A DNA stretch of 64,000 bases from NCBI RefSeq assembly GCF_001424225.1, contig NZ_LMOR01000004.1, positions 310,001-374,000 of the forward strand, read 5' to 3'. The position numbers and the translations under genes are program-made. The notes beneath the pieces are model-generated. The model worked only from the letters and a program-made list of their open reading frames with translations, did not search any database and was not told the origin of the DNA. Positions 46,191-53,273 of this stretch are shown here, in pieces; position 1 is the first letter of the stretch, and each line of letters opens with the position of its first letter. The stretch comes from Microbacterium sp. Leaf151 (lineage in GTDB: Bacteria; Actinomycetota; Actinomycetes; Actinomycetales; Microbacteriaceae).

Positions 46191-46514
46191 TCAGTGGGTG
46201 TCTCCGACGAGCTTCAGGCCGATGACGCAGCCGACGAGGCCCAGCACGAGCAGAACTTTCACCACCGAGATCGCCTCCGCGCCCGTGACCATGGCCACCA
46301 CCACGGTCAGCGCCGCGCCGATTCCCACCCACACCGCGTAGGCGGTACCGGTGGGGATGTCGCGCATCGCGAAGGCGAGGCCCCCCATGGACACCACCAG
46401 TGCCGCACCGAAGATCACGCTCGGCCAGAGCTTCGTGAACCCCTCCGACCGACCGAGGGCCGTGGCCCACACGGCCTCGAGGACACCGGAGAGGATGAGG
46501 ATGATCCACGACAT
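46191..46514 (-). CDS. gdx: SMR-family guanidinium exporter (Gdx/SugE type)
   Basis: The 107-residue protein has four membrane helices and matches the Gdx subclass of small multidrug resistance proteins: MSWIILILSGVLEAVWATALGRSEGFTKLWPS (Glu13 central ligand), MRDIPTGTAYAVWVGIGA. This is closer to E. coli SugE than to EmrE. Gdx exports guanidinium in exchange for protons. A guanidine-III riboswitch lies directly upstream, which confirms the role. GAG/AAGGAG sits 7 nt before the ATG. Confidence 0.93.
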   Translation of the reverse strand: MSWIILILSGVLEAVWATALGRSEGFTKLWPSVIFGAALVVSMGGLAFAMRDIPTGTAYAVWVGIGAALTVVVAMVTGAEAISVVKVLLVLGLVGCVIGLKLVGDTH

Positions 46515-46527
46515 GACTGTGCTCCTT

Positions 46528-46568
46528 GGCCAGTCTTGTCGCTGTCCGGGTACTGATCCCTCGTCCGG
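46528..46568 (-). ncRNA. guanidine-III riboswitch (ykkC-III)
   Basis: The 41-nt element contains CCGGACGAGG, GTACCCGG and GACAAGAC in order, the conserved core of class III guanidine riboswitches as I remember the Thermobifida fusca structure. CCGG...CCGG forms the pseudoknot pairing, and GGATCAG pairs with CTGGCC with one bulge. The 3' edge abuts AAGGAG, the gdx ribosome site, so guanidine binding would change translation of gdx. Confidence 0.9.
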
Positions 46569-46785
46569 TGACGCGGTGGGCGTCCGGTGGCCACGATACC
46601 CAGCGCACCTGGGCAGTGCCCGTGCAGTCCGGCATCCGCCCTCCACGACCACGCGTAAACGCTCCCCACGCGCAGAAACACGCTGTGCTCGCGTTTGTGG
46701 GCGCCGATCGCGTTTATGCATGGGGGGGGAAGTGGGGCGACGCGAAATCGACCGGACAGAGCGGCCGGGGTCACGGCATCCGGGG
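46569..46785. other. gdx-CPBP spacer with GCGTTT repeats
   Basis: No gene is seen here. GCGTAAACGC (46653-46662) and GCGTTTATGC (46710-46719) are inverted copies of one motif, with a further GCGTTTGTG at 46691-46699 and an eight-G run at 46722-46729. They may be binding sites for an unknown regulator near the gdx promoter. No confident promoter is found. Confidence 0.4.
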
Positions 46786-52440: not shown

Positions 52441-52460
52441 TCTTGCGGCGAGGAGCACCC

Positions 52461-53273
52461 GTGACCCGATTCATCGTCGCCCCGCAATGGCAGGGGTCGT
52501 CGTCGTCACGCGCCATGCAGCTCATCGACGGCGCCGAGGCCATCGCCGGAGACCTGCCGCGCAGCTCGACCACCGTGCTCGACGTGCCCACCGAGGCCGG
52601 CGACGCCCAGGGGACGGGGGTTCACCGCCTCAGCGCGCTGGTGCGCATGCGCGAGCGCATCGAAGACGCCGTCCGCGGGTCCGCCGAGCCCGCGATCGTC
52701 GTGGGTGGCGACTGCGGAGTCGCCCTGGGCTCGCTCACGCCCGTCGCGGGAGACGATCTCGCGGTGGTGTGGATCGACGCGCACGCCGACCTCAACACCC
52801 CCGCAAGCTCCCCCAGCGGCGCCTTCCACGGCATGGTGCTGCGCGCGATCGCCGGCGAGGGCGAGAGTCTCCTGCGCCTCGAGCCCGGAATCCCTCCCGC
52901 GCGCCTCGTGCTCGCGGGCACGCGGTCACTGGATGCCGAGGAGCAGCGCTTCATCGAGCATCACGGCGTGCGGGTCGTCGCCCCGAGCGAGATGGCCGAC
53001 CCCGACGTGCTGGCCGACGCCGTGGTCGCGACCGGAGCGACTCGCGTGTACGTCCATGTCGACCTCGACGTGCTCGACCCCGCCGAGGTGGCGGGCGTCG
53101 CCCTGCCCGAGCCCTTCGGTGCCCGCACCGTCGACGTCGTGGCATCCATCCGACGATTGCGGGAACGACTCCCCCTCGTCGGCGCGACGCTGACGGAATT
53201 CTCGCCGTCGTCGCCGGTGGCTGCCGTCGATGACCTCGGCACGATCCTGCGGCTCGTGGGAGCCCTCGCGTGA
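52461..53273 (+). CDS. arginase/agmatinase-fold protein with altered metal motif
   Basis: The 270-residue ureohydrolase-family protein has VWIDAHADLN (Asp106, His108, Asp110) and YVHVDLDVLDP (Asp pair), four or five of the usual Mn ligands. The first motif is VVGGDCGVALG: the His of GGDHS is Cys. A GTG start has GAGGAG 6 nt upstream. Substrates of the family include arginine, agmatine and formiminoglutamate; which applies here is not known, nor whether the Cys form is active. Confidence 0.85.
   Translation: MTRFIVAPQWQGSSSSRAMQLIDGAEAIAGDLPRSSTTVLDVPTEAGDAQGTGVHRLSALVRMRERIEDAVRGSAEPAIVVGGDCGVALGSLTPVAGDDLAVVWIDAHADLNTPASSPSGAFHGMVLRAIAGEGESLLRLEPGIPPARLVLAGTRSLDAEEQRFIEHHGVRVVAPSEMADPDVLADAVVATGATRVYVHVDLDVLDPAEVAGVALPEPFGARTVDVVASIRRLRERLPLVGATLTEFSPSSPVAAVDDLGTILRLVGALA

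Follow-up and report, generated by a model that had tools for sequence, protein, structure and literature searches.

A guanidine-III riboswitch before a Gdx-type exporter gene in Microbacterium sp. Leaf151, and a conserved complementarity of its aptamer strand to the start codon region that may serve as the switch

Guanidine-III riboswitches (ykkC-III, RF01763) were discovered before emrE and speB genes (PMC2864571, in excerpt). Their working has been called "less well established", with exposure of the ribosome binding site as the proposed outcome (PMC5696562, in excerpt), and a review of 2025 credits them with control of mRNA stability via RNase E together with release of the Shine-Dalgarno (SD) sequence (PMC12186494, in excerpt). 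In-line probing of the T. fusca RNA, as cited in an excerpt of PMC5696562, found P1 and P2 to be duplexes even when no ligand is present. The guanidine-II riboswitch shares with the present case the ligand, the transporter gene and translational ON control via an SD-hiding helix, but is built on another RNA fold, and a P0 helix has been proposed for its flanks (PMC9561414, in excerpt). The add riboswitch of V. vulnificus is a translational ON switch with the ribosome binding site and AUG in a sequester hairpin; there too, the start region is concealed in a hairpin in the OFF state and released by the ligand (PMC10907184, in excerpt). The accessible parts of the open-licence papers on guanidine-III (PMC2864571, PMC5696562, PMC12186494, PMC7736828, PMC7266159) contain no description of start-codon pairing.

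The locus analysed here lies in a window of 64,000 nucleotides of Microbacterium sp. Leaf151 (contig NZ_LMOR01000004.1, positions 310,001 to 374,000), from the first letter of which all positions below are counted. A search of the window with cmscan and Rfam 15 gave a match to RF01763 at 46589-46525 on the minus strand, scoring 55.8 bits (gathering score 36). The alignment spans the full model (positions 1-67 of 67), and the E value, calculated over the whole window and 4227 families, is 7.6e-9, so that the match is not due to chance; a tRNA was the sole other Rfam match above cut-off in the window. The features of the locus are as follows.

46525..46589, minus strand: guanidine-III aptamer, full model length (RF01763, 55.8 bits)
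about 46570..46584, minus strand: GACGC-CCACC-GCGUC, the model's first hairpin (RF01763 match and fold)
46559..46568, minus strand: CCGGACGAGG, with the pseudoknot 5' strand CCGG and the conserved third strand ACGA (sequence and RF01763; third-strand role from PMC5696562, in excerpt)
46546..46553, minus strand: GTACCCGG, bearing the pseudoknot 3' strand CCGG (sequence and RF01763)
46533..46540, minus strand: GACAAGAC, conserved aptamer strand and proposed OFF-state partner of the start codon region (RF01763, fold and relatives)
46508..46542, minus strand: predicted OFF hairpin (minimum-energy fold)
46522..46527, minus strand: Shine-Dalgarno AAGGAG, mostly within the loop of the proposed OFF hairpin (sequence and fold)
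46510..46517, minus strand: proposed anti-aptamer strand GTC-ATG-TC, made up of the start codon and its flanks, with 7 of 8 positions paired to GACAAGAC
46191..46514, minus strand: gdx, predicted 107-aa guanidinium exporter of the SMR family, with ATG at 46514-46512 (PF00893, solved relatives and distribution)

The earlier note, made from the letters of this DNA, had recognised the three core segments in order, and all three were found in place on the minus strand, CCGGACGAGG at 46568-46559, GTACCCGG at 46553-46546 and GACAAGAC at 46540-46533. The conserved core CCGGACGA, GTACCCGG and GACAAGAC thus occurs in that order, and the pseudoknot and second stem for which the note had seen possible pairings can be formed as an H-type pseudoknot CCGG:CCGG with inner P2 pairs CAG:CUG. 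The guanidine-III identity, for which the note had named a covariance-model search as the check, was borne out by the bit score given above and by the search of the genome (3.61 Mb, 7 contigs), where the element was the sole guanidine-III match. The core strings had been placed correctly, but the 5' end put at 46568 omits the first hairpin. Also as described, the element lies at the AAGGAG of an SMR gene: the aptamer overlaps AAGGAG (46527-46522), which ends 7 bases 5' of the ATG at 46514, and the distance from GACAAGAC to the ATG is 18 nt. A scan for sigma-70 promoters and terminators gave no match. The full-length model, core strings, pseudoknot and P2 are those of the class, with no unusual aptamer feature, and the gene context is that of the emrE-type genes noted at its discovery (PMC2864571, in excerpt). 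The window element with its gene is almost certainly a guanidine-III riboswitch with an exporter gene, and this copy is predicted to bind guanidine.

The product of the downstream gene matched PF00893 with 74.7 bits against a cut-off of 23.7. Its nearest solved relatives were SMR chains, 6wk5 (2e-18) and 8vxu (9e-18), which we take to be Gdx-Clo structures, ahead of EmrE chains (from 1e-9). It aligned with solved Gdx without gaps over residues 1-102 at 40% identity, and G10, E13, W16, S42, Y59, W62 and K101, presumably the ligand-site columns, were identical. The Gdx type claimed by the earlier note thus agrees with the closest solved relatives. The protein resembles the Gdx-Clo-type exporters (6wk5, 6wk8, 8vxu) in all these respects; it differs in falling under the SugE equivalog cut-off (NCBIfam NF008512, the best model, 88.4 vs 126 bits) and was not assigned that equivalog. 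By its closest solved relatives the window gene is a Gdx-type SMR gene, with transport predicted.

With the protein as query, the genome held one match at E 0.001 or better, and together with the single guanidine-III match this makes the description of the locus as a self-contained sensing and export unit a fair one, though the genome has a further ykkC-type element at another place, below threshold (G000:C4:744456-744567, minus strand; L391 1501-1612). It matched RF00442 with 50.2 bits, below the cut-off of 63, and sits 39 nt before an EamA-family transporter gene. An arginase-family gene is present in the window itself at 52443-53273 (plus strand), 6 kb from gdx (PF00491, 126 bits); it reads GGDCG where GGDHS is presumably the usual motif.

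The riboswitch-gdx arrangement is ordinary, one more guanidine-III/gdx pair, as the element is frequent among genomes of the family and was found in other samples. It was present in 100 of 199 sampled family genomes at E 0.001 or better (93 above cut-off), exporter matches, some of them weak, in 125 of the 199. Exporters of at least 50% identity were mostly located behind the element, with exceptions in G164, G031, G105, G110, G167, G037, G133 and G084. The element was further found in 51/396 genomes of the phylum sample, 61/195 of Myxococcota, 8/294 of Planctomycetota and 3/112 of the family of a Legionella genome. Within the genus the distribution is patchy: G106 and G690 lacked an exporter match, G164 carries a two-gene SMR pair and no guanidine-III match, and at L142 the core of the gdx leader is changed to GAAAAGAC, with a perfect GGTCC-GAAA-GGACC hairpin right before the start codon. 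Guanidine-III core strings with an SMR gene and GTC before its ATG were also observed on a Kocuria rosea plasmid (NZ_CP127860.1; L392 27940-28254, minus strand) and on a large Embleya plasmid (NZ_CP108785.1; L393 from 18001, plus strand), both typed mobilizable.

The aptamer and the gene are therefore of an already known kind, and the new part is the pairing of the start region, which is likely the expression platform according to the modelled folds. In the minimum-energy fold of 46592-46485 (minus strand), GACAAGAC lies against GUC-AUG-UC with 7 of 8 positions paired and more pairs on both sides, and the SD sequence is mostly in the hairpin loop; 5 of 200 shuffles of this stretch fold equally well. 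The reverse complement of GACAAGAC is GTCTTGTC, and the start region reads GTCATGTC. It is proposed that, without guanidine, GACAAGAC and the two bases behind it would pair with CAGUC-AUG-UCG. This OFF hairpin would bury the start codon, keeping the SD near the loop, and the ribosome would be kept off. Guanidine would stabilise the H-type pseudoknot and thereby retain GACAAGAC, together with the 3' strand of P2, in the aptamer. This would free the start codon, so that the exporter is made and guanidinium pumped out. Unlike in the V. vulnificus add riboswitch, sequestering would here fall to a conserved strand of the aptamer, paired across the start codon.

The complementarity was analysed across relatives. 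The 147 riboswitch loci, 100 of the family and 47 further of the phylum, had an SMR gene directly behind the element in 130 cases; among the 17 without one by the rule used, L165 has an SMR-like ORF farther down. With order-level loci added, 137 distinct leaders with exact GACAAGAC were obtained, of which the 133 with 20-36 nt to the start made up the register set. GTC was found at -3..-1 in 87 of these 133 leaders and TC at +4,+5 in 65, as compared to 6 and 8 of 140 background starts, respectively, which were taken by a crude rule and not from annotation; both occurred together in 41 leaders and in none of the 140 background starts. Annotated starts of the Kocuria plasmid had GTC in 5/51 and TC in 3/51. 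The start-codon register was predicted to hold 3.80 expected pairs, and no alternative register between -3 and +9 exceeded 0.59. The register pairs fell to 0.51 with swapped-in background start regions, but stayed at 3.30, close to the value for the leaders' own, with start regions of other riboswitch loci. At least three register pairs were present in the minimum-energy fold of 84 of the 133 leaders and fewer in 49, and GTC was absent from 46.

A pattern scan of named genomes gave at least 118 loci, the first 80 and the other 38 being analysed separately. The named genomes are mostly Actinomycetota and share genera and some genomes with the first set; identical leaders were removed. Among the first 80 listed, 73 loci have an SMR gene and 67 leaders were new and distinct; those of 20-36 nt had GTC in 35/57 and 4.41 register pairs vs 0.49 for background, and the longer ones had GTC in 5/10. 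The other 38 listed, of which five lacked an SMR gene by the rule, gave 31 new leaders, with GTC in 13/24 (2.74 register pairs) and in 3/7 of the longer ones. Overall, 9 of the 17 leaders over 36 nt among the listed loci were without GTC. In other phyla, a set that repeats some named-genome leaders and in which 5 of 41 loci did not fit the pattern, distinct leaders of Myxococcota had GTC in 18/23 and at least three expected register pairs in 15 (from the best 30 of 65 matches), those of Planctomycetota in 3/4 and 1/4, and those of Legionellales in 0/3 and 2/3, respectively, one of the latter with GUU before AUG.

The second codon of the exporter gave a further indication. Among 226 pooled leaders, the sequences of which are related, a serine at position 2 was encoded by TCN in 115 of 115 cases and by AGY in none, and 10 of 10 further Ser2 codons were also TCN. 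In seven ORFs of the window 42 of 135 Ser codons were AGY, as were 11 of 19 Ser2 codons at crude background starts. This exclusive use of TCN would be the cleanest sign of RNA-level selection on +4,+5. Because the aptamer fixes the core, the core pairs never vary, and covariation was sought only beside it. Of the 226 leaders, 140 have a pair between aptamer position 8 and -4 (mean of shuffles 114) and 162 have one between position 9 and -5 (mean 143), and no covariation was found at the next three aptamer positions past 9. After thinning to 112 leaders, positions 8 and 9 were the best of five shifts (z 2.7 and 3.3); at 44 and 28 leaders the signal at position 8 was gone and that at position 9 had z 2.8 and 2.0, respectively. 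GTC remained in 55/112, 21/44 and 13/28 leaders, in a thinning that counts GTC itself as similarity. The covariation beside the core is suggestive only.

Among the other explanations, the strongest is a translational ON switch in which a hairpin with the P2 3' strand as its 5' arm hides the SD only, the start codon being incidental. Exposure of the ribosome binding site is what was proposed for the class (PMC5696562, in excerpt), and in several leaders the SD is indeed flanked by arms, as in CCAC-GAGGA-GTGG and GACTC-GGAGGA-GTGAGTC. However, SD accessibility was 0.54 in natural leaders vs 0.57 with background start regions, while the pairing of GACAAGAC to the start region doubled (0.65 natural vs 0.31 background), and the window leader has most of its SD in the loop. 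A plain SD-hiding hairpin was rejected as a common rule, as SD accessibility hardly differs from background, and the explanation as a whole is unlikely. Somewhat less probable is a riboswitch acting mainly on mRNA lifetime, in which RNase E, scanning from the 5' end, would be stopped by the pseudoknot once ligand is bound, and complementarity to the start codon would play no part in regulation. Such an action is reported for guanidine-III (PMC12186494, in excerpt), but it leaves unexplained the GTC in 87/133 leaders, the TC in 65/133 and the TCN-only Ser2 codons; the RNase E mechanism and a clamp on the start codon can coexist.

It was also considered that GTC is inherited with gdx or is a habit of the lineage, unrelated to the riboswitch. 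SMR genes without the element offer some ground for this: the first or lone ones had GTC in 9/29, far above the general background. The same genes speak against it, however, as GTC is about twice as frequent with the element (87/133; Fisher p 0.0008, relatedness ignored) and TC was found in 65/133 with the element vs 1/29 without, a strong difference (p 1.4e-6). Leaders joined to 30 element-free SMR start regions were predicted to form 1.05 expected register pairs. GTC was present in 6/9 SMR genes with partial signs of the element and in 0/22 second genes of SMR pairs; a smaller mixed SMR control had 6/22, including 10 second genes of pairs and the degenerate elements L206 and L213. Against inheritance with gdx, GTC also recurs in Myxococcota and before two unrelated gene families, and we regard this explanation as improbable.

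Genes unrelated to SMR behind the element were grouped by eye, one of each type being scanned against family libraries. GTC preceded the CBU_0592-type membrane protein gene in 5/8 loci, the PF06695-type gene in 2/3 and the arginase-type gene with a near start in 0/2. In the first type, guanidine-III-type elements precede genes for proteins of about 85-100 aa (L040, L049, L069, L076, L085, L086, L096, L099); the L049 protein was scanned and is a CBU_0592-family membrane protein, and the proteins of the other seven loci look alike. Several of these loci have an altered GACAAGAC core, e.g., GACGACGAC in L076, L085 and L086, and they are possibly a variant class or belong to another guanidine-linked transporter. 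Altered cores were also observed in L106, L124 and L163 (GCCAAGAC, GCGAAGAC and GCAAAGAC), in front of genes whose products have about 154 aa; the L163 product is by scan a PF06695 protein (putative small multi-drug export protein). Elements before arginase-family genes were found in L101 (scanned, PF00491, 256 bits), L112, L113, L241 and L283, the last two being Mycobacterium records.

Pairing of the start region with the third strand GGACGAG through TCGTC before the start codon is very improbable: this third strand is reported free without ligand (PMC5696562, in excerpt) and 38 of 226 leaders have TCGTC at -5..-1 vs 3 of 140 background starts, but TCGTC:GACGA, though enriched as a string, is not favoured in whole-leader folds of 132 of the 133 leaders (0.55 expected pairs vs 0.70 in background chimeras), where the start region makes 4.15 pairs with GACAAGAC vs 0.76 in background chimeras, and it leaves TC at +4,+5 unexplained.

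The preferred reading, an exchange of GACAAGAC between the aptamer and the start codon, was modelled by forcing an aptamer-like fold on 129 leaders; four leaders were left out of these models and one out of the whole-leader folds, as they did not fit the P2 or GGACGA rule. Accessibility of -3..+5 rose by 0.20, as compared to 0.10 in background chimeras and 0.06 in SMR chimeras, and in the window leader it went from 0.13 to 0.62; the model imitates the pseudoknot by constraints only and is qualitative, and the -3..+5 stretch was picked after the register had been seen, so that this is not an independent test. The larger gain comes from the OFF state (0.25 natural vs 0.38 and 0.40 in chimeras), while the openness of the forced state did not exceed that of chimeras (0.45 vs 0.48). 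Opening measured at the start codon only did not set natural leaders apart from background (natural +0.15 vs background +0.13). The duplex state of P1 and P2 without ligand in T. fusca argues against easy strand exchange, provided that those constructs included the start region.

Taken together, the aptamer, the gene and a start region with conserved complementarity to GACAAGAC can be read directly from the DNA. From these we infer a switch between two folds and export of guanidinium, and we somewhat favour a clamp on the start codon as the working mechanism of a riboswitch that would turn on the Gdx exporter. For the class at large, the chances appear about even that many guanidine-III riboswitches, at least in Actinomycetota and Myxococcota, have no separate expression platform; there, pairing of the conserved GACAAGAC with GUC-AUG-UC would, by selection, have left its mark on the leader and on codon 2 of the exporter gene, and guanidine binding and burial of the start codon would compete for the same eight bases. 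A handful of base changes, including a synonymous one, should suffice to test the clamp. The interest of this locus would lie in its mechanism: if true, an aptamer strand that clamps the start codon directly would be a simple mechanism, recurring across phyla.
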